Below are positions 7,041 through 30,311 of a DNA stretch of 46,852 bases, one piece after another; positions within the stretch are counted from its first letter, which is position 1; every line of letters starts with the position of its first letter. Source of the DNA: a virus. A model generated the notes under the pieces. It made no database searches, was not told where the DNA came from, and was given only the letters and a program-made list of their open reading frames with translations. The stretch is from IMG/VR virus record IMGVR_UViG_3300042569_002138, positions 1 to 46,852 of that record. One strand, given 5' to 3'. A program made the translations under genes and the position numbers.

Positions 7041-7588
7041 TGTCAAGACTAGGACCCGTATTATCATCTGCTGGTCGTAAACCAGGAACACCAACAATTG
7101 GAACCGCAACCGCTGGTGATGGGCAAGCGTCTGTAACATTTACAGCACCAACATATTTGGGTAAACCAGATTCTTCTTTAACTTATACAGTAGTTTCATC
7201 TCCTAGTTCAATTTCACAAACTGGATCTGGATCACCAATTGTAGTTACTGGATTATCAAATGGAACTGCATATACATTTACAGTAAAGTTAAGTAATACT
7301 GTTTTAGATTCTGACTTTTCATCATCAAGTAATCAAGTTACACCAGTTGCCCCAGTACCAACACCACCATTTTTCCCATCCTTCCCAACTCCACCTGCAC
7401 CAACTCCAACACCACCTGCACCAACACCAACTCCACCTGCACCAACACCAACTCCACCTGCACCAACACCAACTCCACCTGCACCAACACCACCACCATG
7501 TGCCGATGGTTGTAGTGGAAATGCTGCATGCTTTAATTGTCAGTGTAACCAGGGTGGAAGTTGGGTTAACGGAATTTGTATAGCATGA
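7040..7588 (+). CDS. Fn3 / proline-rich / Cys-rich adhesin-like protein
   Basis: A 182-residue protein; ATG 7040 is chosen because it overlaps the preceding TAA (TAATG). Residues about 15-100 form a fibronectin type III domain (TPTIGTATAGDGQASVTFTA ... LSNGTAYTFTVK). Then comes a linker starting PTPPFFPSFP, five copies of a seven-residue PAPTPTP-like repeat, and a C-terminal Cys-rich end with about six cysteines (CADGCSGNAACFNCQCNQGG), probably disulphide-bonded. It shares its plan with the protein at 16722, whose tail is a Phe-Pro repeat instead. It may reach out from the virion to bind a host glycan or wall component. Confidence 0.75.
   Translation: MSRLGPVLSSAGRKPGTPTIGTATAGDGQASVTFTAPTYLGKPDSSLTYTVVSSPSSISQTGSGSPIVVTGLSNGTAYTFTVKLSNTVLDSDFSSSSNQVTPVAPVPTPPFFPSFPTPPAPTPTPPAPTPTPPAPTPTPPAPTPTPPAPTPPPCADGCSGNAACFNCQCNQGGSWVNGICIA
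7379..7497 (+). repeat. 21-bp tandem repeat coding PAPTPTP
   Basis: A CCAACTCCACCTGCACCAAC-type unit repeats at 21-bp spacing about five times with near-identical codons, so the array expanded recently at the DNA level. Confidence 0.8.
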
Positions 7589-7832: not shown

Positions 7833-8066
7833 ATGGAAAAAGAATCTGCTTGGAAAAAATATAAAAAAAATCTTGGAGATACTAGACCTTGGCACCTTGT
7901 TAATTTAAAAGATTATGTTTCTGAAGAAATATCTAATAACAGATATTCAATATGTATGGAATGTCCAGAATTAATAAAATTAACAAAACAGTGCAAAAAA
8001 TGTGGGTGTTTTATGGCAGCAAAAACAAAGTTAGAAAAGGCAGCATGTCCAATAGGTAATTGGTAG
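7833..8066 (+). CDS. Zinc-ribbon protein, CGCFM/CPIGNW family (second copy)
   Basis: A 77-residue protein with Cys41, 44, 54, 57, 59 and 72 in CMEC...CKKCGCFM...CPIGNW, paralogous to the protein at 1848-2045 but with a different N-terminal half. It lies one base before the oxygenase gene, suggesting co-translation. Zinc binding is inferred from the cysteines. It might act as a small adaptor or regulator for the enzymes. Confidence 0.8.
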   Translation: MEKESAWKKYKKNLGDTRPWHLVNLKDYVSEEISNNRYSICMECPELIKLTKQCKKCGCFMAAKTKLEKAACPIGNW

Positions 8067-8067: not shown

Positions 8068-8625
8068 ATGAAATCTCCATATTTGTTAAAAACTATTTTT
8101 CCAGAAAAAGAGCATAAAGAATTACAAAATCTTGCTATGTATTTGTGGTCAACAGACAAAACTACCTTTGATGAAAGTTTTGGAAGACATCAGTGGACAA
8201 TCTGGGAAGGGGATCCTAAAGAAAATATAAAACCATTAAAGAAATTTCATGAAATGTTGCTACCACTAGCAAAAGAACAGTTTGAATCAGAAACTCTTTT
8301 GCCATCATGGTCTCTTATAAGTATTTATGAAACCAATAAAGCAAAACTGTGGAAACATAAAGACGATAATGCTTGTACATATCATATGAATTATACTATT
8401 TTTCATAAAACACCCTGGGATTTTTATGTAGAGGGAAAAAGGTTTCAGCCAGAAGAAAACGACATGGTAATATCTTATGGAAATGATCAAGAGCACTGGA
8501 GGCTAGATTTTCCTAATCCAGAAACAAATTTAGTTGCAAATGCTTTCTTTTTTTATGTAGAGCCAAACCATTGGTTTTTTACTGAAGGTCCACAGTATTT
8601 ATATACAAAAATAAGAAATAAATAA
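8068..8625 (+). CDS. Probable 2OG-Fe(II) oxygenase
   Basis: A 185-residue protein with a candidate HxD at H97/D99 (WKHKDDNACTYHMNYTIF) and distal His at H143 (GNDQEHWRLDF) inside alternating strands, the order of the double-stranded beta-helix 2OG-Fe(II) enzymes. It lacks the strong YLNDDYEGGE signature of the cassette at 17688-23768 and is more divergent. Its TAA overlaps the ATG of the glycosyltransferase (8623-8627), so the two products are made together. A hydroxylase that prepares the site for a glycosyltransferase is the obvious reading, by analogy with Skp1 modification; substrate unknown. Confidence 0.6.
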   Translation: MKSPYLLKTIFPEKEHKELQNLAMYLWSTDKTTFDESFGRHQWTIWEGDPKENIKPLKKFHEMLLPLAKEQFESETLLPSWSLISIYETNKAKLWKHKDDNACTYHMNYTIFHKTPWDFYVEGKRFQPEENDMVISYGNDQEHWRLDFPNPETNLVANAFFFYVEPNHWFFTEGPQYLYTKIRNK

Positions 8626-9581
8626 TGAAAAAACTATTAGTCAGTGTTGTAAATTATTGTGATCCAGAGTTTTATTCAACAATATTTTCTTTGTGGAGTC
8701 AAGCAAAAAATAAAAAAGAATTGTATTTTTCTATTGTGTCAGAAGATAATAAACAATATAACTTATCTTTTATACCAAACAAACAATTATTTTATAGACA
8801 TTTTGATTTATCAGAATATAGAGGTGGAGTTTGTTGGGCTAGAGAATTAGCAACACAGGTAGATATTGAATATGATTATTTTATACAGTTTGATTCACAC
8901 ACACATGCATCTCCAGGTTGGGATGTAATGGCTATTGAAAGATATGAAAAACTAAAAATTAATGATGAAAATTTTATTATTTGTTATGCCCCAGCAGATT
9001 ACGAAATAATGCCAAGCGGTGCAATTAATCTTGATGCAATAGTCAAATCATCCATGTACGGTTCTTTTTTTGCTGAATTAATTCCAGGCTTTAAATTTCC
9101 AGGATACAGTGTATTAGAAATAGATCAAGTTGTGCGTTCATATTGGGCAACATGTTGTTATCTTTTTGCACCTAAAAAATGGGTTAACGAAGTTGGAATT
9201 AATGATGAAGAATCTTTTAACACAGAAGAGTTTGCTTTATCATTAAGAACTTATGCAAAAAATTGGAAAATATACTCTATTGGAACAAGAGATGTTTTTC
9301 ATAATCAGTCACACCGTCAAGCAAACGGTTCGGTAACAAGAGAAATCCTTAGACCTTGGGCAGACGACAGAAAAGAACCTTATTGGAAACATGTTGAAGA
9401 ATCAACTAACAGGCTTTCTATGTTGATGTCTGGACAACTAGACGTTCCAAAAGAAAAAGTTTCTGCGTTTTTTATAGAGTCTGGAATAGACACAAAATAT
9501 TTAGAGTTTATTCCAAATTATGTTTCGCACGTATTTGTAGAACATAGATCTCTTGGGATGCCTCCAAGACGAGACAAATAA
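8625..9581 (+). CDS. Glycosyltransferase resembling the Skp1-type GlcNAc-transferase family
   Basis: A 318-residue protein of GT-A type. The N-terminus LLVSVVNYCDPEFYSTIFSL matches the (S)xxxYxDPE...T start of this family, RGGVCWAR at residues 66-73 matches its RG..WAR motif, and FIQFDSHTHASPGWD at 87-101 holds the metal/nucleotide motif (D90-S91-H92) and conserved W99-D100. I recall this as Pfam GlcNAc (PF11397), which includes the Dictyostelium enzyme that adds GlcNAc to hydroxyproline on Skp1. Phage members exist. It is coupled to an oxygenase-like gene and a terminator follows at once, so it closes the operon. Acceptor unknown: a virion protein, host glycan or DNA base are all possible. 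Confidence 0.75.
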   Translation: MKKLLVSVVNYCDPEFYSTIFSLWSQAKNKKELYFSIVSEDNKQYNLSFIPNKQLFYRHFDLSEYRGGVCWARELATQVDIEYDYFIQFDSHTHASPGWDVMAIERYEKLKINDENFIICYAPADYEIMPSGAINLDAIVKSSMYGSFFAELIPGFKFPGYSVLEIDQVVRSYWATCCYLFAPKKWVNEVGINDEESFNTEEFALSLRTYAKNWKIYSIGTRDVFHNQSHRQANGSVTREILRPWADDRKEPYWKHVEESTNRLSMLMSGQLDVPKEKVSAFFIESGIDTKYLEFIPNYVSHVFVEHRSLGMPPRRDK

Positions 9582-14595: not shown

Positions 14596-16692
14596 ATGGC
14601 AACCAGAATGCAGCAACGCAGAGGTACTGCGGCTCAATGGACATCAGCAAATCCAGTATTAAATGCTGGTGAAATGGGGTGGGAGTCAGACACAAATAAA
14701 TTTAAAATTGGTGATGGAACAAATCACTGGGCAGACATAGACTATTTTATTGATGCCAACTCAACTGCAAATCCTGCTTTTGGTACAAGCATTACTTTTG
14801 AAGGCGCTACCGCCGACTCTTATGAAACTACTTTATCAGTAGAAGATCCAACCGAAGATCGCACAATTACAATTCCAAATGCAAGTGGACAACTTGTTCT
14901 TCGTGATACACATGAAACACTTACAAATAAAACTTTACAAGGTCCATCAATTTCAGGACTTATAATTTCAGATAGTTCAATTGTTGTGGAAGGTGCGACA
15001 GCAAATGCATTTGAAACTACTCTTCAATTTACAGATCCAACCGCAGACCGTACAGTTACAATCCCTGACGTAACTGGTACAGTAATTACAACTGGCAACC
15101 TTTCAGATATTACAGCCCTTGGAATATTTAGTTCAACCATTACAATGGAAGGAACTACTCCAAATGATTTTGAATTAACACTTTCTGCAGGAGATCCAAC
15201 TGAAGATCGTGTAATTACTTTCCCAGATGCTAGCGGTACAGTAATTACAACTGGAAATATGTCCGATATTACTAATACTGGAGTATTTTCTGGTCAAATT
15301 ATATTTGAGGGTGCAACACCAAATGAATTTGAAACTACTGTGCAAGCACAAGACCCAACAGCAGATCGTACTATTACACTTCCAGACGTAACTGGTACAG
15401 TAATTACAACTGGCAACCTTTCAGATATTACTTCTGTTGGAGTACTAAGTACATCAGTTGTTTTTGAAGGTACTACAGCAAACGATCATGAACTTACTCT
15501 TGCTGCGGGAGATCCAACCTCTGATATAACTATTTCATTCCCTGATGCAGCAGGAACACTTGTTGTTGATACTGCTACACAAACCCTTACCAACAAAACA
15601 CTAACAAGTCCACTAGTAAGCAATCTACAAATTACCGATGGAAGCATTGTTCTTGAAGGTTCTACACCAAATGATTTTGAAACCACATTAACTGTTGTAG
15701 ATCCAACTGCTGACAGAACAATTACAATTCCAGATGCTTCAGGAACAATTGCTTTTACAACCGATATTACAGTTAGCGCAACATCAACAAATACATTTTC
15801 TAACAAATCTATTTCTTTAGCAACAAATACTGTAAGCGGAACAACAGCCGAATTTAATACTGCTCTTTCAGATTCTAACTTTGTTACTACTGGAGACACT
15901 GGAACAGTTACAAGCACAATGATTACTGATGGAACTATTGTTGATGGAGATATTAATGCCTCTGCAGCAATTGCTCAGTCTAAAATTTCTGGATTAACTA
16001 CAGATCTTGCTGCCAAAGCACCTTTAGCAGATCCAACATTTACAGGAACAGTATCTGCAGCAAATTTAACACTTAGTGGAGATTTGACTGTAAGTGGAAC
16101 TACAACAAACATTAACTCAACTAATTTAGTTGTTGAAGACAAGAATATAATCCTTGGAGATGTAACATCACCAACTGACACAACAGCAGATGGCGGTGGT
16201 ATTACACTTAAAGGCGCAACTGATAAAACCTTTAACTGGGTTGACGCTACAGACGCTTGGACATCTTCCGAGCATATTAATTTAGCATCTGGAAAATCAC
16301 TTTATCTAAACGGTACATTGTTAAAAGATGTAGCAGAAACCTTAACAAACAAAACTTTAACAGCCCCTAAAATTAATCTAGGACTTAATGCTCAAACTGG
16401 AACAACATACACACTTGTTTTAGGTGATGCTGGAAAAGTTGTAACAGCCTCTAATGGTTCAGCAATTACAGTTACTATTCCACCATCAGGTGATGTTGCT
16501 TACGCAACTGGATCACAGATAACTGTTCTTCAAAAAGGTGCAGGCCAAGTTACTTTTGCACAAGGCTCTGGAGTTACTATTAGAAGCACTGGTGCAACCG
16601 CTACTGCTCCAAAACTTCGTGCTCAGTATTCTTCAGCAACATGCGTATATGAAGGTTCAGATGTTTGGTACGTTGTAGGAGATATTAGTTAG
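14596..16692 (+). CDS. Long tail fibre with RRGTAAQW head and 53-residue repeats
   Basis: A 698-residue protein. The N-terminus MQQRRGTAAQWTSANPVLN...GEMGWESDTNKFKIGDGTNHW is the classic phage fibre head domain. Six copies of a repeat of about 53 residues follow (EGATANAFETTL...DPTADRTVTIPD..GT.ITTGNLSDIT), then a segment with NAGE-free linkers, TTNINSTNLVVEDKNIILGD (also common in fibres), and the C-terminal end module shared with the protein at 6318. Repeats build the shaft and the end module probably contacts the receptor. It has its own extended -10 promoter and an AAAGGAG site. Confidence 0.8.
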   Translation: MATRMQQRRGTAAQWTSANPVLNAGEMGWESDTNKFKIGDGTNHWADIDYFIDANSTANPAFGTSITFEGATADSYETTLSVEDPTEDRTITIPNASGQLVLRDTHETLTNKTLQGPSISGLIISDSSIVVEGATANAFETTLQFTDPTADRTVTIPDVTGTVITTGNLSDITALGIFSSTITMEGTTPNDFELTLSAGDPTEDRVITFPDASGTVITTGNMSDITNTGVFSGQIIFEGATPNEFETTVQAQDPTADRTITLPDVTGTVITTGNLSDITSVGVLSTSVVFEGTTANDHELTLAAGDPTSDITISFPDAAGTLVVDTATQTLTNKTLTSPLVSNLQITDGSIVLEGSTPNDFETTLTVVDPTADRTITIPDASGTIAFTTDITVSATSTNTFSNKSISLATNTVSGTTAEFNTALSDSNFVTTGDTGTVTSTMITDGTIVDGDINASAAIAQSKISGLTTDLAAKAPLADPTFTGTVSAANLTLSGDLTVSGTTTNINSTNLVVEDKNIILGDVTSPTDTTADGGGITLKGATDKTFNWVDATDAWTSSEHINLASGKSLYLNGTLLKDVAETLTNKTLTAPKINLGLNAQTGTTYTLVLGDAGKVVTASNGSAITVTIPPSGDVAYATGSQITVLQKGAGQVTFAQGSGVTIRSTGATATAPKLRAQYSSATCVYEGSDVWYVVGDIS
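14782..15760 (+). repeat. Six diverged fibre repeats of about 53 residues
   Basis: Repeated coding blocks centred on EG[AST]T.N..E.TL...DPT.DR.IT.PD..GT. Copies 2-4 share the spacer VITTGNLSDIT. They are homologous to a single copy in the fibre gene at 11957. Confidence 0.7.
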
Positions 16693-16721: not shown

Positions 16722-17525
16722 ATGGCAACAGATATTCTGGGCACCATTAGTTCCTCTGCGAAGGGTGCTCCTGGCATCCCAACAATTGGAACAGCAACTG
16801 ATGTGGGAACATCTCGTGCATTTAACAACGGTGCTGCCACTGTAACCTTTTCTGAAGGAGCAGGAGCGCCAGCAACATCTTTTACAGTTACATCATCACC
16901 AGGTGGTTATACAGCAACTGGCTCTTCTTCACCTATAACAATTGAAGGATTGCAATCCAATACATCTTATACATTTACCGTTAAAGGAAATAACCTATCA
17001 GGTTCATCACTTGATTCATCTGCCTCTAACTCTATTACAGCAACTACAGTACCAGCAACACCTTCTGCACCAAGCGTAACAACTTCAGCATTGAATGATA
17101 ATGTTTCTTGGACTGCCCCTGCAAATGGTGGTAAAGCAATTACTGGATATACTTGGGCATCTTCTGATGGAAAAGGCGCTACAGTAGGTTCAGGAACAAC
17201 AAGTGTTAATGTTACTCAAGAAGCAAATACTTCACAAACTTATACAGTTTATGCAACTAACGATAATGGTAACTCAGGAACCTCAAATGCATCAGGTAGT
17301 GTAACTACTCCTCCATTTTTTCCACCATTCTTCCCACCGTTCTTCCCATTCTTCCCACCATTCTTCCCGTTCTTCCCACCATTCTTCCCGTTCTTCCCAC
17401 CATTCTTCCCGTTCTTCCCATTCTTCCCACCGTTCTTCCCATTCTTCCCACCATTCTTCCCGTTCTTCCCACCATTCTTCCCGTTCTTCCCAGGTTTCGG
17501 TGGCGGTAACATTATATTCCAGTAA
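16722..17525 (+). CDS. Two-Fn3 protein with a Phe-Pro repeat tail
   Basis: A 267-residue protein. Residues about 17-110 and 112-195 are two fibronectin type III-like domains (TPSAPSVTTSALNDNVSWTA marks the second). Residues 197-257 consist only of Pro and Phe in FFPP and FFP units, followed by GFGGGNIIFQ. A ribosome site AAAGGGTAGG precedes ATG. The plan parallels the protein at 7040, whose linker also starts PPFFP before changing to PAPTPTP. Such a hydrophobic, proline-dense tail is unusual; it may form a rigid polyproline-like rod, insert in the cell envelope or be a substrate of the hydroxylases encoded next to it. It closes the fibre block. Confidence 0.75.
   Translation: MATDILGTISSSAKGAPGIPTIGTATDVGTSRAFNNGAATVTFSEGAGAPATSFTVTSSPGGYTATGSSSPITIEGLQSNTSYTFTVKGNNLSGSSLDSSASNSITATTVPATPSAPSVTTSALNDNVSWTAPANGGKAITGYTWASSDGKGATVGSGTTSVNVTQEANTSQTYTVYATNDNGNSGTSNASGSVTTPPFFPPFFPPFFPFFPPFFPFFPPFFPFFPPFFPFFPFFPPFFPFFPPFFPFFPPFFPFFPGFGGGNIIFQ
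17310..17492 (+). repeat. Tandem repeat coding a pure Phe-Pro tract
   Basis: Units of CCATTCTTCCCGTTCTTCCCA type (21 and 9 bp steps) repeat for 183 bp and code 61 residues of only Pro and Phe. Near-identical copies indicate recent slippage or recombination. Confidence 0.85.
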
Positions 17526-17627: not shown

Positions 17628-17652
17628 GTTTAATAAATAAAACATTTTTTTA

Positions 17653-17661
17653 TGATACAAT
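17653..17661 (+). promoter_or_regulatory. Extended -10 for the oxygenase cassette
   Basis: TGATACAAT, followed by a leader of about 20 bases with ACGGAGAT before ATG 17688. A second TATAAT hexamer overlaps at 17661-17666. Confidence 0.5.
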
Positions 17662-17687
17662 ATAATAAAGAGACGGAGATAATTTAT

Positions 17688-18401
17688 ATGATATATGAAG
17701 ATGAAAATCAAATACCATGGTTTACTAAAGATAGATCAGAAACATCAACAAATAGATATCCAGTAAAAACTATAGGAAATAATATTGTAGTTGAAAATCC
17801 AGAATTGGGTATAAATTTATACAGAAATGTATTTTCAAAAGAAGATTCTGAAAGATATATAAAAATACTTGAATCTAATTTAAATAGTGGCGGTAAATAT
17901 AAGTGGTCAGATGCAACAGTTACAAACTCAGAAAAACCAATAAAAAAAGCAAGAGATTGTGTTGATTTTAAATATAAAAAAGAAAATTTAGGTTTAAGGA
18001 ATGAGCATAATGCGGAACTTCTTGATCTACATGAAGAAATATATCAAAAATTAAAGTTTTGTGTTGATGATTATGCAAAATATTGGGGAATACATATAGT
18101 ATATTATGAAGCGTTTAATTTTGTAAAATATGAGGGTGAAGGTAAACACTTTAATATCCACGCAGATCATGGACCAGCATATAATTGTACAGTTTCTGCA
18201 GTAATATATATTAATGATGATTATGAAGGTGGAGAGATTAGATTTCCAAGATTTAATAACTATACTCATACTCCAAAAATAGGGGATATCTTGCTTTGTC
18301 CATCTAACTATATTTACGAACATGCATCTTTGCCAATGAAAAATGGAGCAAAATATTGTGTTGTAGTTATGACGGACATCAATGAATTAGGACATAAGTA
18401 G
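17688..18401 (+). CDS. P4H-like 2OG-Fe(II) oxygenase 1
   Basis: A 237-residue protein; ATG 17688 is chosen because ACGGAGAT lies just upstream and the in-frame ATG at 17652 overlaps the -10. Motifs: HFNIHADHGPAYNCTVS with H158 and D160, YINDDYEGGEIRFPRF, TPKIGDILLCPSNYIYEHAS with distal H212, and K222 in GAKYCVVVMTD as 2OG-binding base. This is the prolyl-4-hydroxylase-like double-stranded beta-helix. It is closest to the enzyme at 19178 (shared DCVDFK and Y.EAFNF.KY). It is first in the cassette; its stop overlaps the GTG of the next gene. Confidence 0.85.
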   Translation: MIYEDENQIPWFTKDRSETSTNRYPVKTIGNNIVVENPELGINLYRNVFSKEDSERYIKILESNLNSGGKYKWSDATVTNSEKPIKKARDCVDFKYKKENLGLRNEHNAELLDLHEEIYQKLKFCVDDYAKYWGIHIVYYEAFNFVKYEGEGKHFNIHADHGPAYNCTVSAVIYINDDYEGGEIRFPRFNNYTHTPKIGDILLCPSNYIYEHASLPMKNGAKYCVVVMTDINELGHK

Positions 18402-19168
18402 TGTCTTTAGTTGTTAAGTTTAGATCATTTAGACCTTGGTTAAATAAAAAAAGTATTTCTGTTCCAGTTCCAACACAAGACATAATTCCCCAATGGTATA
18501 AAGATGCAGATAGATTTGCAAAAATGCCAAATGGAGAATATTATAAAGCACCAAAAGAGGTTTGTCCTTTTCCAAAGCCAGGAACCAAAGATGATTACGG
18601 CAAGATTCCAACCTGGAAGGCTTGTCCAGCAATTCTAGATGCATTTATGACGGGATATACTTTTAAAACTCCATGTGACTTAACATTTTTTAAAAATTCT
18701 AAAGGCACAATTGATGTTAAGGTAGATGATATAAAGTTTAAAGATTTTTGTAGCGCAAGGCCAGCAATGCCACAATTTGAACACCCTAAAGGATTTTATA
18801 AAAACCATTTTGCTTGGATGCCAGATTGGGGAATAGAACTACCAGAAGGCTATAGCGCTTTATTCATGACGCCCATGAATAGATTTGACTTACCTTTTAT
18901 AAATACTACTGGTATTGTAGATTCAGATAAAGTTCATCTTTTAGGTAGTTTTCCATTTTTTATTGCAGATGGTTGGGAAGGAACCCTGCCTGCAGGAACT
19001 CCTTATCTACAAATTCTTCCATTTAAAAGAGAAGATTGGCAACATGAAATTGATATTTTAAATCAATCAGAAATGTATGATAAAATGGTAAATAATGCAA
19101 GTTTTTATAGACAGCCTGACGGCGGGGTATATAAAAGTAAAGTATGGACAAAAAGAGAATATAAATAG
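18401..19168 (+). CDS. Unknown protein, second of the oxygenase-linked paralogues
   Basis: A 255-residue protein with a GTG start overlapping the previous TAG. It has QDIIPQWYKDADRF near the N-terminus, CPAILDAFMTGYTFKTPCDL in the middle, LPEGYSALFMTPMNRFDLPF and LPAGTPYLQILPFKREDWQ near the end. The same elements occur in the leftward protein at 1114-1833 (Y.IPDWYKN, FDAITAGYI.VT, PKGYSTLFVAPMHR, PAGTPIAQVIPFKRDSW). Sandwiched between oxygenases 1 and 2, it probably serves the same pathway, perhaps as partner or substrate carrier. I recall the family as DUF6065-like but cannot confirm it. Confidence 0.8.
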   Translation: MSLVVKFRSFRPWLNKKSISVPVPTQDIIPQWYKDADRFAKMPNGEYYKAPKEVCPFPKPGTKDDYGKIPTWKACPAILDAFMTGYTFKTPCDLTFFKNSKGTIDVKVDDIKFKDFCSARPAMPQFEHPKGFYKNHFAWMPDWGIELPEGYSALFMTPMNRFDLPFINTTGIVDSDKVHLLGSFPFFIADGWEGTLPAGTPYLQILPFKREDWQHEIDILNQSEMYDKMVNNASFYRQPDGGVYKSKVWTKREYK

Positions 19169-19177
19169 GGGGATAAA

Positions 19178-19861
19178 ATGCAAACATGGACAGAAAAAGA
19201 AAGTCTTGGACAGGGAATAACCTGCTATCGTGGAGTAATAAAAAAAGAATTTGATGTAATTAATAGACTTGAAAGCACTTTGGGTTCTGTTGCTGGGTAT
19301 GGAGAGTTATCATCAGAAGGAAAAGCATACCATTGGATGCCAGCATACGTAGGTTATCAACAATTAATGCCTGACTATAGAGATTGTGTAGATTTTAAAT
19401 TTAAAAAAACTGATATAGAACAAGATAAAAGTGAAGATTCACTAAAACTACAGGAACTCTGGCAAGACGTTTACGATGCTCAGGCAGCAGCCGTTGAAGA
19501 CTATAGACGAGACTACAATATTATGAAATTAAAATATTGGGAGGCTTTTAATTTTATTAAGTATGGTCCAAAACAACATTTTAAAGAGCATCATGATCAT
19601 GGGTATTCTTATAATTGCACAGTTTCTTTAGTTGCATATGTTAATGATGACTACGATGGCGGAGAGTTGTATTTTAGATTGCAGAATTTAAATATTAAAC
19701 CAAAGGCTGGAGATCTTTATATATTCCCCTCTAATTTTATGTATCCACATCAGGCAATGCCCGTTCACTCTGGAACAAAATATTCTATTGTAACAATGTT
19801 AGACTACAGTAAAAAATATCACACACCAGACATGTATGATCCAAAATGGGACAATGAGTAG
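19178..19861 (+). CDS. P4H-like 2OG-Fe(II) oxygenase 2
   Basis: A 227-residue protein with AGGGGGAT upstream. H138 and D140 lie in HFKEHHDHGYSYNCTVS, then YVNDDYDGGELYFRLQN, KPKAGDLYIFPSNFMYPH with distal H191, and K201 in GTKYSIVTML. It is paralogous to oxygenase 1 along its length. As there, a Lys rather than Arg is in the 2OG-binding position, which is common in P4H proper. Its TAG overlaps the GTG of the next gene, so the pair oxygenase plus unknown protein occurs twice in a row. Confidence 0.85.
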   Translation: MQTWTEKESLGQGITCYRGVIKKEFDVINRLESTLGSVAGYGELSSEGKAYHWMPAYVGYQQLMPDYRDCVDFKFKKTDIEQDKSEDSLKLQELWQDVYDAQAAAVEDYRRDYNIMKLKYWEAFNFIKYGPKQHFKEHHDHGYSYNCTVSLVAYVNDDYDGGELYFRLQNLNIKPKAGDLYIFPSNFMYPHQAMPVHSGTKYSIVTMLDYSKKYHTPDMYDPKWDNE

Positions 19862-20577
19862 TGTTAAATATATCAGTTGAAAAAATGCCTGGGTGTAATT
19901 TTGTTATTACTCCAATGTCAATTAAAAGAGATTGGATGGATAATACATCAGAAAAACATGCATACAGGTGTTTCCCAGTAACTCAGGCCAATGTTGTTGG
20001 CTGGAGCCTTTCTTGTTTGGAAGATATTGATTTTATTTGGGATGGGATTAATGATCAAACTAGCGAACATGTTGAAATATTTAGTCCTTCGGGGGCTTAT
20101 GGCGGAAGAGGACAATCATCAATAAGTTTCAATACTAGTTTAATTTTTAAAACAGATAACGATATAAGTATTTTAACAATAAATCCAGTTAATTATTTTA
20201 ATGAATATTTTGAAACAATGTCAAATATAATTAGTACTTCTTTTTATGATAATCCATTGCCCTTAGCAATTAAAGTAAAAAAGGCAAATGAAAGAGTAAT
20301 TATAAAAGCAGGAACTCCATTAGCAACTATAATTCCAATATCTTTAACAAATTTAAATAATACTACAATTGAAATGTTAGAATGGAAAGACGAAGAAAGA
20401 TTAAGAACAAATGCAAATATTTCATATGGCGAGGCAGCACAAAAAATAAATTCTACTGGAGGTTGGACTGATTGGTATAGGGATGCTATAAATGAAAAGG
20501 GAGAGTCTTTAGGTAATCATGAGGTTAAAGTTTTAAAACTTTATGTAAAAGATAAATTACCAAACACAACATTATGA
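19861..20577 (+). CDS. Unknown protein, third and most diverged oxygenase-linked paralogue
   Basis: A 238-residue protein with GTG start overlapping the preceding TAG. It keeps the plan of the proteins at 1114 and 18401: an early tryptophan region (WSLSCLEDIDFIWDG), a middle FKTDNDISILTINPVNYF and the signature AGTPLATIIPISL. The C-terminal part with GGWTDWYRDA is different. Its position after oxygenase 2 repeats the order oxygenase/unknown of the first pair, suggesting a duplicated two-gene unit. Function unknown. Confidence 0.7.
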   Translation: MLNISVEKMPGCNFVITPMSIKRDWMDNTSEKHAYRCFPVTQANVVGWSLSCLEDIDFIWDGINDQTSEHVEIFSPSGAYGGRGQSSISFNTSLIFKTDNDISILTINPVNYFNEYFETMSNIISTSFYDNPLPLAIKVKKANERVIIKAGTPLATIIPISLTNLNNTTIEMLEWKDEERLRTNANISYGEAAQKINSTGGWTDWYRDAINEKGESLGNHEVKVLKLYVKDKLPNTTL

Positions 20578-21029
20578 GTCAATTAAATACATCAAATACG
20601 TATATTCTTAATGAATATCTTAACAAAATTAAAAATGAAAAAGTATATCATTATTTATTGACAGTATGTAGAGATGAAGAAGAAACAATAAGGTCTATTG
20701 TATCTTTTTACAGTTTAGAAGAGGCTATAGAGGGATATGAAATGTATCAAGATGCAGGATTTGCAAAACAACATCAAAAAATATCTTTATATTATCCAAA
20801 CGGGAAAGTTGATACTAAAATTTTAAGAAGAAACCATGCTGGAGATCCATCTTTTGTTAGGCAAAACTATATAGATACTGTCGAGGCGTTGCATTCAGTT
20901 AAAGATAAGTTAGATAAAAAAGATTATGAGGAGTTATGTGTTAAAATTGTAACCTCATTTGCTAAGGATAATTGGAGATTTGACCCAAATAGATTTTTAA
21001 AGCAATTAGAAATACAGATGGAGTTATAG
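20574..21029 (+). CDS. 151-residue helical protein, unknown
   Basis: Starts in an ATGA overlap with the previous gene. It is charged and helix-rich, with no HxD or cysteine pattern. Notable segments are SFYSLEEAIEGYEMYQDAGF and NHAGDPSFVRQNYIDTVEAL. It lies within the oxygenase cassette and ends the first transcription unit; the next gene has its own promoter. No family recognised. Confidence 0.6.
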   Translation: MSQLNTSNTYILNEYLNKIKNEKVYHYLLTVCRDEEETIRSIVSFYSLEEAIEGYEMYQDAGFAKQHQKISLYYPNGKVDTKILRRNHAGDPSFVRQNYIDTVEALHSVKDKLDKKDYEELCVKIVTSFAKDNWRFDPNRFLKQLEIQMEL

Positions 21030-21045
21030 GGGATATAAAACCCTA

Positions 21046-21054
21046 TGATATAAT
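21046..21054 (+). promoter_or_regulatory. Extended -10 for the leaderless oxygenase 3 gene
   Basis: TGATATAAT with six bases to ATG 21061. An ATAGGG/CCCTAT hairpin (about 21026-21046) lies just upstream and overlaps the previous stop; it has no T-run. Confidence 0.65.
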
Positions 21055-21060
21055 AAAATT

Positions 21061-21735
21061 ATGGACAAAACGCAGGCATCGGTAGTAGTTAGAAAACCTT
21101 CAATGACACCTTCTGGGTGGTTTGGAAATAGTAAAGAAATGATTGTTGAGTTAGAAAACTTTATGACTCAAGAAGAAATAGATTTCTTAGAAAAGGCTGC
21201 TAAGTCTATAACTATATGGGATGTAACAGAAACACATGTTAATGAAAATGGCACAGTTGTATACGATTCTGATTATTGGAAAGATAGGGTTGCAACCTCT
21301 CCAACATTAGATAAAAATGATCCTAAAATTGCACCAGTTATTGCTGGATTGTTTCAAAGATTACAACCAATTGTTGAAGAGTTTTATAAGGTAAAAGTTA
21401 TTCCTACTGGCACAACTATTGTTAGATGGCTTCCAGGACAATTTCAAAATCCTCATGCAGATAAAGAATTACATGAAGGTCCAGATGCTGGACTTCCTAA
21501 TGATTTTCCAAACTATGATCTTTCAAGCCTATTTTATTTAAACGAAGACTATGAGGGTGGAGAGTTATACTTCCCATTGCAAGGTGTTCAGTTTAAACCA
21601 AAAAAGGGTGCAGCATATTTTTTCCCAGGGGATATGAATTATGTTCACGGAGTAACAGAGATTAAGAGTGGTATTCGATACACCTGTCCATTTTTTTGGG
21701 AAATTATAGAACATACTGGAGATAGAAAACCATGA
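21061..21735 (+). CDS. P4H-like 2OG-Fe(II) oxygenase 3
   Basis: A 224-residue protein. GQFQNPHADKE carries H132 and D134, LFYLNEDYEGGELYFPLQG the core strand pair, FKPKKGAAYFFPGDMNYVHG distal H196, and SGIRYTCPFFW the 2OG-binding R206. The N-terminal 30 residues (KPSMTPSGWFGN) are a separate extension. A leaderless start follows TGATATAAT. It overlaps the next gene by ATGA, beginning the second transcription unit of the cassette. Confidence 0.85.
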   Translation: MDKTQASVVVRKPSMTPSGWFGNSKEMIVELENFMTQEEIDFLEKAAKSITIWDVTETHVNENGTVVYDSDYWKDRVATSPTLDKNDPKIAPVIAGLFQRLQPIVEEFYKVKVIPTGTTIVRWLPGQFQNPHADKELHEGPDAGLPNDFPNYDLSSLFYLNEDYEGGELYFPLQGVQFKPKKGAAYFFPGDMNYVHGVTEIKSGIRYTCPFFWEIIEHTGDRKP

Positions 21736-22478
21736 ATTTAAATAATAAAAAAAGATTAACCAAAGATATTGTAATTTATGAAAATTTTATAGATGAAGAT
21801 ACTTGTGCAAAATTAATAAAAGTTTTAGACAAACATGCAGATGCTGGTAAAATTACTTGGATGCCTATATCTTTTTATGAATCTTACTCATCTGTATTGC
21901 CAAAAGATAATGATGAAGATGTTATTAATGAAGGTCTTAGTCCTAATATTTTTTCAGAAATTAAACAAGGAATTATAAATGCAGTTGCAAGTGTTCATGA
22001 TCTTGATCCAAAAATAATTTGTCAAATTGGATATCATACACAAAAATGGGAGCCAGGGGCTTACGCTAGAATTCATTCTGATAATACAGATGAACATGGA
22101 AATTCTGGAGCGTTTACTAGAAGTAGGTATGCAGCATTTTTATATTTAAATGATAATTTTGATGGAGGCCTTTTACAATTTCCAAATCAAGATTTAAATA
22201 TTCAACCTAGAGTTGGAACGCTTGCCGCATTTGATGGTGGATTTAATAATATGCATGAAGTGACACTTATTACTAATGGTGTTAGATATACCATAGGTTC
22301 TTTTTGGGATGACCGTGAAGAAGATGCATATCCACAAGAACTAAGAGATGCCTGGGCAGCAGAAATGAAAGAAACCAGAGCAAAACAAGAAATTGAAAGA
22401 GCAGAGTGGCAAGAATTGCTTAAGCAAGGGTGGAAAATAGACGTGTATGGAAATAAGTATAAACCAGAGGAGATATAG
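21732..22478 (+). CDS. P4H-like 2OG-Fe(II) oxygenase 4
   Basis: A 248-residue protein starting in an ATGA overlap. Motifs: YARIHSDNTDEHGN with H115 and D117, AAFLYLNDNFDGGLLQFPNQ, IQPRVGTLAAFDGGFNNMH with distal H175, and NGVRYTIGSFW with R185. An acidic, helical C-terminal extension of about 55 residues follows the catalytic domain and has no counterpart in the other enzymes; it might dock a partner or substrate. It ends one base before the next start. Confidence 0.85.
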   Translation: MNLNNKKRLTKDIVIYENFIDEDTCAKLIKVLDKHADAGKITWMPISFYESYSSVLPKDNDEDVINEGLSPNIFSEIKQGIINAVASVHDLDPKIICQIGYHTQKWEPGAYARIHSDNTDEHGNSGAFTRSRYAAFLYLNDNFDGGLLQFPNQDLNIQPRVGTLAAFDGGFNNMHEVTLITNGVRYTIGSFWDDREEDAYPQELRDAWAAEMKETRAKQEIERAEWQELLKQGWKIDVYGNKYKPEEI

Positions 22479-22479
22479 G

Positions 22480-23139
22480 ATGATTAATAACCTTAAGCAA
22501 CAATTAGCAAAAAATAATTATGAATTTGAAGAAATAACAGAAGAGTTATTATTAGTTAAAAACTATCCATTAAAAGAAGAAGTAGATTTTATATGGAGTA
22601 AAATTAATGAAGCATCTCAAGCAGATTGGGAAGTGGAATATCTATCAAATTTACCAAGATTTTGTATGGAAAAATTTGGTAGAGATGATGTTGAAAATCT
22701 TGTTGCTGAAGGCAAATTTGAAATTACTCAAAACTGGGCTGATAAAAATTTAAACATTTCACATTATAAAGAGTATAAGCCTTTTTATAAAAGACTTAAT
22801 GACATGGTTGTAGAATCAGACCCAAGTACACATTTAAGCGGTTTTGCTACTATTCAAAGAATGCAGCCTGGAATTGAACTAAAACACCATACAGACCAAC
22901 ATACTGATCCATCAATTAAATACGCTACAATACTATATCTTAATGATGATTACAATAAGGGAGAACTGTTTTTTGAAAATCTTAATTTAGAATTAAGGCC
23001 AAAACCAGGAGAACTTTTAATTTTTCCAGGAAATGAAAAATATGAGCATGGAGTAAGACATGTTGGTGAGGGACCAATAAGATATGTTTTGGTTGGCTTT
23101 ATAAAAGAAGTAGACCACTATGTTAAAAATAAATACTAA
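22480..23139 (+). CDS. P4H-like 2OG-Fe(II) oxygenase 5
   Basis: A 219-residue protein; ATG 22480 is favoured because GAGGAGAT sits just upstream and the longer frame would overlap the previous gene by 32 bases. Motifs: IELKHHTDQHTD with H137 and D139, ILYLNDDYNKGELFFENLN, LRPKPGELLIFPGNEKYEH with distal H190, and GPIRYVLVGF with R201. The core has NKGE in place of EGGE, the most diverged strand pair of the six. Confidence 0.85.
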   Translation: MINNLKQQLAKNNYEFEEITEELLLVKNYPLKEEVDFIWSKINEASQADWEVEYLSNLPRFCMEKFGRDDVENLVAEGKFEITQNWADKNLNISHYKEYKPFYKRLNDMVVESDPSTHLSGFATIQRMQPGIELKHHTDQHTDPSIKYATILYLNDDYNKGELFFENLNLELRPKPGELLIFPGNEKYEHGVRHVGEGPIRYVLVGFIKEVDHYVKNKY

Positions 23140-23150
23140 AGGAGAATGCC

Positions 23151-23768
23151 ATGGATAAAGAAATACTTGAAGAAAAAGTCTATTATTACACAAATGTAAT
23201 AGAAGATCCTAAAAAACTTGTTGAAGCAATTGAAAATGATAACAAGAATCCTTGGGGTGAGTGGATGGCTTGTAGTGGACAGGAATATGTGTATGGAACA
23301 GATAAAAATATTGTCGAGTCATTAGAAAATGATTATATATATAAAACATTACAAAAAGCATTTGATGATGTAGCAAGAGACTATGCCAAAGCACAAGGAA
23401 TTACAGATGAGCCAAAATTATTCCCTCAGTATCCAATTAAAAAATATATGCCTGGAACATACATGGGGGCTCACTTTGACCAACAAGAGGGTGACGAAAG
23501 ACTTAAAGTTTCTTTTGTTATGTACTTAAATGATGATTATGAGGGTGGAGAAATTTCTTTTACAATTGCCTCTCCAGAAGGAGTATTGACTCAGCCTAGC
23601 CCAGAGTCAGATTTTGAAGAAGCAAAAAATAATGGAAATTATAGTTTTTATGTAAAGCCAAAGGCAGGAAGTATTATTGTTTTTCCTCCTTCACCACCGT
23701 ATCACCATACAGCACACTTAGTTAAAAGTGGCGAAAAGATAATGGTTCCTCAACACTGGATTCACTAG
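23151..23768 (+). CDS. P4H-like 2OG-Fe(II) oxygenase 6
   Basis: A 205-residue protein with AAAGGAGAAT before ATG. YMGAHFDQQEGDERLKVSFV contains H108 and D110, MYLNDDYEGGEISFTIA the core, YVKPKAGSIIVFPPSPPYHH the distal His (H185 or H186), and K196 in SGEKIMVPQHW. An insertion of about 25 residues lies between the core strands and the distal His. It ends ten bases before the short-chain dehydrogenase gene. Confidence 0.85.
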   Translation: MDKEILEEKVYYYTNVIEDPKKLVEAIENDNKNPWGEWMACSGQEYVYGTDKNIVESLENDYIYKTLQKAFDDVARDYAKAQGITDEPKLFPQYPIKKYMPGTYMGAHFDQQEGDERLKVSFVMYLNDDYEGGEISFTIASPEGVLTQPSPESDFEEAKNNGNYSFYVKPKAGSIIVFPPSPPYHHTAHLVKSGEKIMVPQHWIH

Positions 23769-23778
23769 GTCAGTATAG

Positions 23779-24444
23779 GTGAAAACGGCAATAGTAACTG
23801 GTGCTAGCAAGGGTGTTGGATATGCAACTGTAAAACTTTTATCTGAAAATGGATATAAAGTTATAGCAGTATCCAGAAACTTATCAAAAATTTCAGAATT
23901 AATTTCAGAAAATGTTGAAACTTATAAATTAGATATAACAGATTTTCCAGAAATAGAAAAGTTTTTTGAAACTTACAAAGATATAACTATTGATCTTTTA
24001 GTAAATAATGCTGGAGGTGGGGTCAGTCCTACAAAAATAATTAATGAAACTCCAGAAAATTTTAAACGGGCATATGATGTTAATGTAACAGGGCCAATGT
24101 ATTTATCTCAATTATTTGTGCCATGTTTAAAAAGGTCAGAGTCTGCAACTATTGTGTTTGTAACGTCTTTTGGTGGAAAGATTCCTTATTGGGGAGGGGG
24201 AAACTACACCAATGCTAAACGTGGGCAAAGAGGTTTGGTGGACACGATGAGGTTAGAATTTCCTGAATATAATATAAAAATAACTGAAATCTGTCCTGCT
24301 ACAATCGATACTCAAGAACAAAAAAGAGATGACGCCCTATCTGCAGAAGATTTAGCAAACGCAATTTATTGGGTTGGATCTCTGCCAAAACATGTAAATA
24401 TAAATCAAATAGAGATGTGTAATATAAATAGTCGTAAGTTTTGA
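23779..24444 (+). CDS. Short-chain dehydrogenase/reductase (SDR)
   Basis: A 221-residue protein from GTG 23779. It has the classical SDR set: cofactor loop TGASKGVG (residues 7-14), LDITD for the adenine pocket, NNAGG at 76-80, catalytic S130 (VTSFGG), and Y143-x-x-x-K147 (NYTNAK). R33 in AVSRN suggests NADPH use. Length is slightly short but complete. It ends the oxygenase cassette and is the only redox partner-like enzyme in it. It could oxidise a hydroxylated product to a ketone, reduce a sugar nucleotide intermediate, or serve another pathway. Confidence 0.85.
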   Translation: MKTAIVTGASKGVGYATVKLLSENGYKVIAVSRNLSKISELISENVETYKLDITDFPEIEKFFETYKDITIDLLVNNAGGGVSPTKIINETPENFKRAYDVNVTGPMYLSQLFVPCLKRSESATIVFVTSFGGKIPYWGGGNYTNAKRGQRGLVDTMRLEFPEYNIKITEICPATIDTQEQKRDDALSAEDLANAIYWVGSLPKHVNINQIEMCNINSRKF

Positions 24445-24544: not shown

Positions 24545-24606
24545 AGGATTACTTTACGATTAGTAAAGCGCTAATAAAATTTTTTAATAGAAAGTTGGAA
24601 AAATCA

Positions 24607-26672: not shown

Positions 26673-29600
26673 ATGTCTACCCCATCAAATTTGTATGCAG
26701 AAAAAATATTTGCAGAACACCCATTAGCACTATGGGCACTAGATGGCGCAATTGACTATATTAATTTAATAGATTCAGATTATCAAGACATAGAGGATTC
26801 TTGGACGGTAACTGGTGGAACTCCTTCTATAGAGTTATCAGATGTTAACGCTCCATTTCCTACAGTAGAAGTAAATAAATTATTAGGTAGCGTCCCACCT
26901 TCTGGCACAGGGGATATTGTTTGTATTAGTCCAGATTTGATAAATTTTTCAGATTTAAATAATAGTATGGGTACTTTTTGCATAGGCGCCCACGTATATA
27001 TTGATAGCCAATATATAGACTCTATTTCCATTGGATTTGAATATACAGACACAACAACTGCATCTATAGTTCAAAAATTAAAAACATACCCAATAACATC
27101 TACAAGTAAGTGGATTTTTGTTTCTCAAACATCTGAAATTGTTAACGAAAATACAGGGCTAAGATCAGTTATAAAAATTACATCTACTGTTGGCGGATCA
27201 GTTTCAACAGATTATTTATATTATATAAATGGAGTCACAGTTGGTCAATGGTCTGAAGAGTTTAATCATTCATCCCTTGGCCTTACACCAATATCAATGC
27301 CAGCAACAATTGCATTAGACTCAACACAGGTTGTGTCTTCTCCAGCATACGGATTGTCTGGAGACGCTGCTTATTGTGTTGTTGCAGACAAAAGATTGCT
27401 TGCAAAAAATACTAGCATCCCTCTTGTATACGGAGCATCAAATGTTACAACACTTAGTCCAAATCCAAATGGAGAGCCTTCTTTAATTATTCCAGGTAAA
27501 GGGTTTTTAAACAAAGTCGGTCAACATAAAGAATATACTGTTGAGTTTTGGTTAAGAATAAATTCCGACTCCGTAACATCTAAAAAAATCTTTGGCCCAA
27601 TAGCATCAAATGACGGCCTATATGCAGACAATGGATTTTTAACTTTGGTAATTGGTAATGACTTTGTTTCTCACTATGTTGGTGAATGGTTCAGACCAAT
27701 GCTTATTCAAATAAGATTAATTAGAAATGCTACTACCTTGGTTCTTAATGGAGAAGAAGTTGCTTCTTTAACTATAGAAACAGATAATTTAGTTTTACCA
27801 GAAGAGTATGATGAGTCAGACAAAAGTCAAGATTGGCTAGGGTTTTATTCTTATTCAGATATTAATCCAATAGATGTTGACTGTGTCGCTATATATTCGT
27901 ATCAGGTTCCTATAAATGTTGCAAAAAGAAGGTGGGTCTATGGTCAAGGCGTAATATCTCCAGAAGGCATAAACTCAGCATATGGAGGCACTGCAGCGTT
28001 TATTGATTATTCTTTTGCAGACTATACCGCCAACTACTCTTACCCAGACTTTGCTGAATGGCAACAAGGATCTTTTGACAATCTAGCAACAACCTCTAAA
28101 GTATTAAGAACACCAGAATATGTTTTACCAGAAATATATCTATCAGACAAAACTTTAACAGAATTATATCAAGACAATAAGTCAATTCAAAATAGCGTTT
28201 CTGGGCCAATTGATGATGAAACCTTTATAACTTTTCGACCAAATAATTCTTGGAATGCAAAAGCATGTTATTTTAATTTTACAAGTTTTAATATTTTAAA
28301 TACTCAGATTGCTACTTTTTATGGAGTGTTTAGCAATCATAATCTTGATTCAACTCAAACACTATTTAAAGTATATAATTCAATTAATAGCAACTATTTT
28401 GTAATCCAACAAGACGAAGACGTAGTTTCTTACATTTTAAATTATAATGGAGTAAATGAGACCGTATATACTTCAGAAACAATTGAGGAGCATCAACTTT
28501 TTTCCGTAGGTATTAATATAAGTTCTTTAGTAGACACGTACGGAGGAAACCTTGCTACATTTTTTGGAAATAGAAATTCTTTAAAATTATATGTTGGTGG
28601 AGATGGTTCTCTGTCTGGAACATTTTTAGGAAGAATATATTCTGTTGGTTTTTCAACATTAAAAAATTCATTGTCGATATCTGATTATTTTAATAGCGAC
28701 GGTATTGCAACATTTGACGACTTATCAATTAGCGGAGTAACAGAAGAAGAAAATGCAATTGCTTTAGTTGAACATTTAGCAAGTTACACCCTTTTGCCAT
28801 TAGAGTCCTACGGGGCTTACTTTTTAGATATTGGTGTTTCTGGATCCTGGCAAGACTATCTTCCACTATCTTATTTTGGTCAATACGTAACTAACGATGC
28901 TGGCAATCAATTTTATGATTTAGACTTTTTACAATTTAACCTTAGCGCTCCATCCCCCACAACTTTAGCGGAAGAAGAAGTAATTTCTTCATGGACCTAT
29001 GAAGATTTATATCAAAATTATTTTCAACCAGTTCAAAGAACATACTATGATTTTGATAATCAGTTATTAACTGGTTGGAATAACTATGAAGATGTAGAGC
29101 AAAGGTCTACAAAAACATACACCTACGACACCACCAACTCTGTAATTAAAAGTTATGTAACTTTGCAATATGTGCAAGATGGGGCAAATCTACTTGATAG
29201 TAACTTTACAACAATTGAACCAGTCTACCGTGATTCAATTATAGACATTGATGAGTATCCAGATTGGGAAACTACAAAATTTGAGGTTGTTAATAATGCA
29301 CTTATCTATCCAACAAAGACGGTAGATTTTAATGAGTTGGCAATTGTTTATCATTTAGAGTTTAATGTTCGTGGAATATTAAATAAGCCAGTTTTATTAA
29401 GCAAGTTAGAGATTGCTTCTCAAGCGTTTAATGATAACTCATTTAACCCTGTTGGCACTAGGTTTGGTATTGATTTATTTCCATATAAACGTTCAGGAAT
29501 TTACTTTGACTATAAGTCTAAAAATCCATTTACAATTTATAAAGGAAGCACTCCATATCTATATTTAACAAAAGATTCTGGAATTCAGGTACGTGGAGAG

Positions 29601-30311
29601 GTACTATCCTTGGAGAGCCGTGGAATTTCTTTACCTATAAATCAAACCCTGTCCTCAGAATATTTAATAAGTGCTATTCAGATGTGGCTTCGATACTCTG
29701 AAACAGAATTTCCTCCAGTTCCTACAGAACTATTTGAAATTATTTATAAAGAAGATACAATAAAATTTTATATAGTAGCAGATAGCGACACTGGTTTAAG
29801 GGCAAGAATTTTTGCAAAAAGCCTTTTAAATAATCAGGTGGTTGATAATATAGTTTATTATTGGAACGGTTCTATAGTTAGAGAGCCAGTTCTAACATCC
29901 AAGGAATGGGGCGTTTTAGGTATATCTTTTGCCTCTGCCCTTAACTTTGACGAATTCTTAGGATCAATAAATATTAATGGTCCAGTATTATTTAATAATG
30001 TTTCTTACTATCAAGCAAACAATTTACAACAAGTTCAAAAAACAATAACAAGACCTTGGATAAAGGCTAAAACAGACGGTATAACAAATTTTACGTGGGA
30101 CTACTACTTTAATAATGACTTTACATGGAACAGGGTATTAGTAATAGGATCAACAGACTTATATGGTGTAAACCCATCAGAAGTGTATAAAACCTATCTT
30201 GGAACAAATAAAATCATATTTGACGATAACAATGGCTTAAGCCTAGACTCAGATAAAATGAAAATATATCAAGATGTCAGTTGGTCAATAAATACCGCTT
30301 CAGCACTCTAA
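26673..30311 (+). CDS. Large virion protein with LamG/concanavalin-like domains
   Basis: A 1,212-residue beta-rich protein. The N-terminal HPLALWALDGAIDYINLID is the usual first strand of LamG-like jelly rolls. A second clear unit around residues 285-420 has YTVEFWLRINSDS, LVIGNDFVSHYVGEWF and TLVLNGEEVASL. More such units can be seen (VYNSINSNYFVIQQDE, SLKLYVGGDGSLSG). The protein lies directly before the portal module, so it is probably a tail-tip or decoration protein that binds carbohydrates. No enzyme motif is apparent. Own promoter and a ribosome site precede it. Confidence 0.75.
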   Translation: MSTPSNLYAEKIFAEHPLALWALDGAIDYINLIDSDYQDIEDSWTVTGGTPSIELSDVNAPFPTVEVNKLLGSVPPSGTGDIVCISPDLINFSDLNNSMGTFCIGAHVYIDSQYIDSISIGFEYTDTTTASIVQKLKTYPITSTSKWIFVSQTSEIVNENTGLRSVIKITSTVGGSVSTDYLYYINGVTVGQWSEEFNHSSLGLTPISMPATIALDSTQVVSSPAYGLSGDAAYCVVADKRLLAKNTSIPLVYGASNVTTLSPNPNGEPSLIIPGKGFLNKVGQHKEYTVEFWLRINSDSVTSKKIFGPIASNDGLYADNGFLTLVIGNDFVSHYVGEWFRPMLIQIRLIRNATTLVLNGEEVASLTIETDNLVLPEEYDESDKSQDWLGFYSYSDINPIDVDCVAIYSYQVPINVAKRRWVYGQGVISPEGINSAYGGTAAFIDYSFADYTANYSYPDFAEWQQGSFDNLATTSKVLRTPEYVLPEIYLSDKTLTELYQDNKSIQNSVSGPIDDETFITFRPNNSWNAKACYFNFTSFNILNTQIATFYGVFSNHNLDSTQTLFKVYNSINSNYFVIQQDEDVVSYILNYNGVNETVYTSETIEEHQLFSVGINISSLVDTYGGNLATFFGNRNSLKLYVGGDGSLSGTFLGRIYSVGFSTLKNSLSISDYFNSDGIATFDDLSISGVTEEENAIALVEHLASYTLLPLESYGAYFLDIGVSGSWQDYLPLSYFGQYVTNDAGNQFYDLDFLQFNLSAPSPTTLAEEEVISSWTYEDLYQNYFQPVQRTYYDFDNQLLTGWNNYEDVEQRSTKTYTYDTTNSVIKSYVTLQYVQDGANLLDSNFTTIEPVYRDSIIDIDEYPDWETTKFEVVNNALIYPTKTVDFNELAIVYHLEFNVRGILNKPVLLSKLEIASQAFNDNSFNPVGTRFGIDLFPYKRSGIYFDYKSKNPFTIYKGSTPYLYLTKDSGIQVRGEVLSLESRGISLPINQTLSSEYLISAIQMWLRYSETEFPPVPTELFEIIYKEDTIKFYIVADSDTGLRARIFAKSLLNNQVVDNIVYYWNGSIVREPVLTSKEWGVLGISFASALNFDEFLGSININGPVLFNNVSYYQANNLQQVQKTITRPWIKAKTDGITNFTWDYYFNNDFTWNRVLVIGSTDLYGVNPSEVYKTYLGTNKIIFDDNNGLSLDSDKMKIYQDVSWSINTASAL

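Follow-up and report, generated by a model that had tools for sequence, protein, structure and literature searches.

The window analysed here, an IMG/VR virus record of 46,852 bases (IMGVR_UViG_3300042569_002138) that is probably a fragment of a tailed-phage genome, carries a gene for a fibronectin type III (FN3) protein with a C-terminal Pro-Phe repeat and, immediately downstream of it, a cassette of six prolyl 4-hydroxylase (P4H)-type oxygenase genes interleaved with two members of the DUF6065 family. Profile search assigned all six oxygenase genes, spanning positions 17652-23768, to PF13640 (P4H-type 2OG-Fe(II) oxygenase; 2OG, 2-oxoglutarate), with scores of 37-57 bits against a curated cut-off of 27 and E-values of 3.5e-15 to 6.1e-9. 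The initial annotation, made from the sequence alone, had listed six adjacent P4H-like oxygenases with an HxD...H motif and a 2OG-binding Lys or Arg, and this description was confirmed both by the profile matches and by the conservation of the active sites among orthologues.

The six oxygenases and their active sites

All six genes lie on the forward strand, and the HxD...H triad and the 2OG-binding residue were located in each of the products. P1 (17652-18401; E 2.2e-9) carries H170, D172, H224 and K234, its triad being conserved in 98 orthologues; P3 (19178-19861; E 3.5e-15) carries H138, D140, H191 and K201; and P6 (21061-21735; E 6.1e-9) carries H132, D134, H196 and R206. The corresponding residues are H115, D117, H175 and R185 in P7 (21732-22478; E 3e-9), H148, D150, H201 and R212 in P8 (22447-23139; E 8.2e-11), and H108, D110, H186 and K196 in P9 (23151-23768; E 4e-10). 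The 2OG-binding residue is thus Lys in P1, P3 and P9 and Arg in P6, P7 and P8, exactly as initially read from the letters, and its identity is retained, paralogue by paralogue, in 82-99% of the orthologues. Furthermore, no substitution of the Fe triad was detected in the 52-163 non-identical orthologues examined per paralogue (∼665 in total), the sole departure being an occasional gap at the position of the distal His. The paralogues themselves are divergent, as P1 and P3 share 41% identity over 208 amino acids and the other local alignments mostly 22-34%, with one short match of 58 amino acids at 45%. As the triad is never substituted and the choice of Lys or Arg is paralogue-specific, the six proteins look like active, separately maintained enzymes.

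A profile built from the six oxygenases was compared with solved structures, and P3H1, BaP4H, PxP4H, LH3 and PHD2 were found near the top, with TET-like dioxygenases ranking far below the polypeptide hydroxylases. This match to polypeptide prolyl and lysyl hydroxylases makes a base-modifying role less favoured. The PHROGs phrog_3531, phrog_2954, phrog_2297 and phrog_274, whose labels read ferrochelatase, DNA endonuclease and DNA endonuclease V, match 2OG-oxygenase-type proteins at 17652-23768 and 8068-8625; the labels look like mistaken annotations that have been carried over into phage records.

Linkage of the cassette to a Pro-Phe repeat gene

The gene immediately upstream of the cassette (16722-17525, forward strand; fn3 E 2e-8), hereafter FN3-PF and the proposed substrate, had passed without comment in the initial annotation. 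Its product ends in a (PPFFPPFFPFF)n tract, PPFFPPFFPPFFPFFPPFF..., that is encoded by varying codons (CCA, CCG and CCT for Pro, TTC and TTT for Phe). Relatives fetched via the DUF6065 gene repeatedly show the same arrangement, namely an FN3-(Pro-Phe repeat) gene followed by P-D-P-D-(U)-P-P-P-P, where P stands for an oxygenase, D for a DUF6065 protein and U for the small protein U5 described below.

The linkage was also tested independently of the oxygenases by running a DNA pattern for PPFFPPFFP over IMG/VR, with PTPTPTPTP as a matched control; loci were counted only if enough downstream DNA was present, and a P4H gene was scored when it had the same orientation and lay no more than 3 kb away. 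Among the matches listed, such a gene was found downstream of 55 of the 70 PPFFPPFFP loci, in contrast to 1 of 61 control loci. Clustering of the carrier N-termini at 80% identity reduced the 70 loci to 47 groups, and in 36 of these the majority of members were P4H-linked. In the reverse direction, a Pro-rich gene was located directly upstream of 48 of 52 P1-like genes, and likewise of 33/36 non-identical cassettes fetched with the DUF6065 protein D4 and 41/45 fetched with P1 (74/81 altogether). As a within-record control, positions were shifted at random 5000 times in 20 long records: of the 126 P4H genes among the matches listed, 80 lie downstream of a PPFFP site at a distance of no more than 8 kb, whereas the shifted counts averaged 17 and never exceeded 55.

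In a search of 84,980 species genomes of bacteria and archaea, a PPFFP-type pattern turned up at 55 places. Bacterial tracts with at least three PPFFP copies were present at only four loci (in assemblies of Verrucomicrobiales, Gammaproteobacteria, twice, and Chitinophagaceae), all of which carried P4H and/or DUF6065 genes within the fetched stretch, and none of the 21 bacterial loci with one or two copies did so. The four multi-copy loci have the appearance of phage contigs that were binned together with bacterial ones.

Gene order among the relatives was compared after labelling each oxygenase by its nearest paralogue in the window. The order P1, P3, P6, P7, P8, P9 is conserved, its successive adjacent pairs having been observed 139, 176, 155, 81 and 77 times; P7 adjoined P9 in 47 cases where P8 was absent, and other orders were rare. 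This order held among orthologues down to ∼40% identity, and the most widespread pair, P3 followed by D4, persists at only ∼40% (P3) and 27% (D4) identity. Records contained up to 12 PF13640 genes. The initial suggestion that the six enzymes probably do not share one substrate is therefore disfavoured, because a conserved order of orthologues behind a single Pro-rich gene is more easily reconciled with enzymes acting at different positions of one polypeptide; the individual enzymes likely act on different residues.

The cassette is also retained where the repeat changes from PPFFP to PPGFF, or where the carrier itself changes, as in the short carriers of locus L448 that lack FN3. Certain FN3-Pro-Phe relatives (L022:7012-8733, L088:3705-5021 and L102:7886-9166) have a Hint/intein-like domain at their C-terminus, indicated by sub-threshold matches to Intein_splicing, Hint_2 and Hint and, in some, by a C-terminal HN; this sequence feature suggests that the tail protein is autoprocessed or ligated.

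DUF6065 proteins and remaining genes of the cassette

The second family that the initial annotation had seen interleaved with the oxygenases proved to be DUF6065/phrog_7084, represented by D2 (18401-19168) and D4 (19861-20577; PF19541 E 1e-26), both on the forward strand. A third paralogue, D0 (phrog_7084 E 1.5e-53), is encoded on the reverse strand at 1114-1869 and, like the 151-amino-acid protein of unknown function U5 (20574-21029, forward strand), which is found in part of the relatives, had not been pointed out before. The cassette ends, as originally described, in a short-chain dehydrogenase (SDR) gene (23779-24444, forward strand; adh_short E 5.7e-41), which is absent from the cassettes of many relatives.

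An AlphaFold2 monomer model of D4 (pLDDT confidence score 93.6) matched dUTPases in a Foldseek search (E 7e-5, template modelling (TM) score to the target ∼0.66). The catalytic Asp of motif III is gone in D4-type proteins and kept in D2-type proteins, where a dUTPase-like motif is retained (G-I-V-D-x-D; GIVDSD in D2). As motif III is lost in the D4 type, we did not file DUF6065 as an active dUTPase despite the predicted fold. A canonical dUTPase (PF00692) was present in only 1 of 26 records, so that a nucleotide role is possible for the D2-type proteins.

Peptide patterns derived from D2 retrieved no DUF6065 protein from bacterial genomes; with the Pfam profile, applied to the one class Alphaproteobacteria, 45 of the 385 genomes sampled gave a DUF6065 match, which lay above the cut-off in 41 of them. 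Four of these alphaproteobacterial proteins are fusions, three with Cupin_8/JmjC_2 and one with SapC (L501, L507, L511 and L506). The gene fusions with Cupin_8/JmjC_2 suggest a joint function of DUF6065 and 2OG oxygenases; among the bacterial DUF6065 copies, only fusions are informative on this link. They resemble the phage cassette in coupling DUF6065 to a 2OG-oxygenase-type domain, and differ from it in that the oxygenase is of the JmjC/Cupin_8 type, resides in the same protein and has no phage or Pro-repeat context.

A second module and other genes of the window

A second group of genes, referred to as module 2, begins with an FN3-like protein (7040-7588, forward strand) that contains a (PTPTPPA)n tract, shares 47.9% identity over 98 amino acids with FN3-PF, so that the two are sister FN3 proteins, and is the proposed substrate of this module. 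Next come a small gene without an assigned function and, on the forward strand, a small Cys-rich gene (7833-8066), F and G. F (8068-8625) is a PHD2-like 2OG oxygenase by predicted fold: its AlphaFold2 model (pLDDT 91.9) has PHD2 as best match in the Protein Data Bank (E 8e-8, TM score 0.65), the Dictyostelium prolyl hydroxylase 6t8m is also among the structural matches, and H97, D99 and H143 are invariant. The sole invariant Arg/Lys candidate for 2OG binding is R145, two residues past H143, where the 2OG residue would be expected ∼9-10 residues past the distal His. The predicted fold thus supports the earlier reading of F as an oxygenase, and a JmjC_2 match (PF08007 E 6e-7) upholds the same reading for the gene at 2452-3054 (forward strand), whose product may be a further protein hydroxylase judging from its sequence.

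The start of G (8625-9581), a gene newly recognized here as a glycosyltransferase, overlaps the stop of F. Its sole family match was PF11397 (E 1.2e-19; 71.4 bits against a cut-off of 21), the family to which the Skp1 hydroxyproline GlcNAc-transferase belongs. G carries a D-S-H motif with an invariant His, D-x-H being the metal motif of polypeptide GalNAc/GlcNAc-transferases; comparison with solved structures gave no match for G. Wherever F was visible in a G lineage and the DNA before it was long enough, a protein rich in P/T or in Pro-Phe was encoded upstream.

The small Cys-rich protein at 7833-8066, near DUF6171 with a sub-threshold match to PF19668, has a paralogue at 1848-2099 on the reverse strand (49% identity) and is of a type conserved in both modules. 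Each of the two genes adjoins an oxygenase or DUF6065 gene, and in relatives similar genes often separate the cassette from the Pro-rich gene. A collagen-like protein (4572-5303) was considered as a possible alternative substrate; its relatives are found chiefly near module 2 and more rarely next to the cassette.

Elsewhere in the window, genes for a portal (30676), a head maturation protease (32319) and a head protein (33692) were identified, as were genes for tail-fibre-like proteins and, at 39881-46852, a gene that probably encodes the tape measure and whose open frame of more than 2324 amino acids runs off the end of the window. A ribonucleotide reductase (phrog_367) is encoded at 24595, and between it and the portal gene lies a gene for a 1212-amino-acid protein (26673-30311) for which no PHROG match was found.

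Discussion

Taken from sequence evidence, the most probable reading, which we hold with reasonable though limited confidence, is that the cassette enzymes hydroxylate the Pro-rich tract of the upstream FN3 tail-associated protein with DUF6065 proteins as partners, and that in module 2 hydroxylation is perhaps followed by glycosylation. The phage would make an FN3 protein ending in a long Pro-Pro-Phe-Phe repeat, and the six P4H-type oxygenases would use Fe(II), O2 and 2OG to hydroxylate the prolines of this repeat, possibly its phenylalanines too, each paralogue probably acting on its own position or context. The dUTPase-fold DUF6065 proteins would be non-nucleotide partners of the oxygenases, for instance in substrate binding. 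In module 2, F would hydroxylate the P/T-rich tract of the 7040-7588 product and G would then add a GlcNAc-type O-glycosylation, a scheme modelled on PhyA and Gnt1 of the Skp1 pathway. A tail location is suggested for FN3-PF because its neighbours include, directly on its upstream side, a tail-fibre-like protein with an N-terminal Mtd_N (major tropism determinant) domain (14596-16692, forward strand; PF18454 E 2e-12), as well as tail-fibre genes. As to the effect of hydroxylation, stiffer polyproline-II segments, a soluble form of the hydrophobic tract or an adhesive surface are guesses.

Several observations weigh against this reading. Among the matches listed, 15 of the 70 PPFFP genes had no P4H gene nearby, and a few cassettes (L117/L119, L384, L407 and L432) lacked a Pro-rich gene upstream, gene absences being weak evidence since IMG/VR records are fragments. 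When carrier N-termini were clustered at 50% identity, the majority was P4H-linked in only 5 of 14 clusters, and the linkage among phages related by descent is partly inherited. An excess of extra P4H genes in module 2 after PPFF as compared with PT repeats was apparent per locus and was lost after lineages were collapsed (p = 0.55). Sampled standalone bacterial DUF6065 genes adjoin neither P4H nor Cupin_8 genes. The isolate phage collection contained nothing that matched D4 or G, its oxygenase matches were distant and confined to cyanophages and Methylophilales phages, and all the evidence comes from the sequences of uncultured genomes. Finally, hydroxyproline was sought in purified virions of PBCV-1, a virus that encodes a P4H, and was not detected (PMC7019647). 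As a separate observation, the gene upstream of the L384 cassette (L384:3875-4468) encodes an aspartyl/asparaginyl beta-hydroxylase (PF05118 E 1.6e-12), a further oxygenase class.

Inheritance leads to the first alternative, according to which the Pro-Phe gene and the oxygenases share a variable island of the tail region by descent, with no chemical link between them. Synteny is indeed common to related phages, and the cassettes without a Pro-rich gene and the Pro-rich genes without a cassette would be expected under such hitch-hiking, but the association was recovered by a DNA pattern alone and in the within-record shift control, it persists while carrier and repeat change (PPFFP, PPGFF with Hint, and the FN3-less short carriers in L448), and multi-copy PPFFP tracts in bacterial assemblies occur exclusively beside P4H/DUF6065 genes. 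We consider this explanation unlikely.

The second alternative, to which we give an equally low probability, is that the enzymes steer host metabolism by consuming 2OG or by modifying a small molecule or surface glycan of the host. This is the interpretation that has been published for phage 2OG oxygenases: in the portion of the 2010 cyanophage comparison on which we draw (PMC3037559), T4-like cyanophages are described as carrying as many as five 2OG-Fe(II) oxygenase genes per genome, for which DNA repair or effects on 2OG and nitrogen were suggested, and this reading was repeated for lake phages (PMC10611076). The SDR that closes the cassette would also be in keeping with it, but the SDR is missing from many cassettes, and six specific paralogues of conserved order behind a structural-type gene would be unexpected for a simple draw-down of 2OG. 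The cyanophages resemble the present phage in having multiple 2OG-Fe(II) oxygenases of the same PHROG (phrog_61) and differ from it in that a linkage to a Pro-repeat gene was not found in that portion of the comparison, in addition to the lack of a match for D4 and G among isolate phages.

A pathway of DNA or nucleotide modification, with TET/JBP-like base hydroxylation, DUF6065 handling a nucleotide and the ribonucleotide reductase at 24595 feeding the pathway, could invoke that nearby phrog_367 gene, the dUTPase fold of D4 and a sub-threshold match of P6 to PF12851 (Tet_JBP; 19.8 bits, cut-off 34.9, E 5e-4), but is very improbable given that the oxygenase profile favours protein hydroxylases, that D4-type proteins lack the catalytic-motif Asp, that the cassette is linked to Pro-repeat tail-type genes and that no base-modification enzyme was seen among the scanned genes of the window, the replication region lying outside it. 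Of the targets proposed in the initial annotation (tail fibres, host glycans or modified bases), a tail-type protein, in this case FN3-PF, is clearly favoured by the genomic evidence.

Hydroxylation of a Pro-rich tail-associated protein by the cassette would have partial counterparts in known systems. Virus-encoded prolyl hydroxylation is already known, as PBCV-1 encodes an active P4H that hydroxylates Pro-containing peptides sequence-specifically (PMC7019647). The likeness lies in a small virus-encoded P4H; in PBCV-1, however, it is a single gene of a eukaryotic virus that has not been shown to follow a Pro-repeat gene, whereas in the phage six such genes stand behind one, and it is this tie of a phage cassette to a Pro-repeat protein that is new. 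The P4Hs of Bacillus anthracis and Pseudomonas (PxP4H) and PHD2 share with the phage enzymes the fold, the HxD...H triad and a Lys or Arg for 2OG, but the phage paralogues, 22-45% identical to each other, form a dedicated operon with DUF6065 partners. In the Skp1 pathway of Dictyostelium and Toxoplasma, the GT60 enzyme Gnt1 needs the hydroxyproline made by PhyA (PMC6939170). Phage F is PHD2-like by predicted fold and phage G belongs to PF11397, but F and G overlap in one operon and their putative acceptor is a P/T-rich repeat protein instead of Skp1. In a Baltic Sea survey, the use of viral P4Hs was called cryptic and collagen tail fibres were mentioned (PMC9301287). In the open-access literature we found no report of phage hydroxyproline, nor any account of a phage F-G pair or of oxygenase cassettes that accompany phage proteins with Pro-Phe repeats.

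Arrays of phage 2OG-Fe(II) oxygenases have so far been without a substrate and have been annotated as metabolic genes, ferrochelatase, DNA endonuclease or endonuclease V; the product of the adjacent gene, with its Pro-Phe or Pro-Thr repeats, is a concrete and testable candidate. If the proposed hydroxylation takes place, virion adhesion or assembly would depend on the availability of O2 and 2OG, hydroxyproline would be a feature of bacterial viruses, the cassette would be a toolbox of repeat-specific hydroxylases, and DUF6065 would gain its first functional context. More tentatively, and with more doubt than confidence, we suggest that the tail of these phages bears an appendage that is rich in hydroxyproline and partly glycosylated, likened to plant extensins or mucins, and that at least six hydroxylases, each specific for a position, share the work of making it with DUF6065 proteins as recruitment partners and a GlcNAc-transferase acting on hydroxyproline/threonine. 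Such an appendage would represent a maturation of a virion protein that depends on O2 and 2OG, for which we found no precedent in bacterial viruses.

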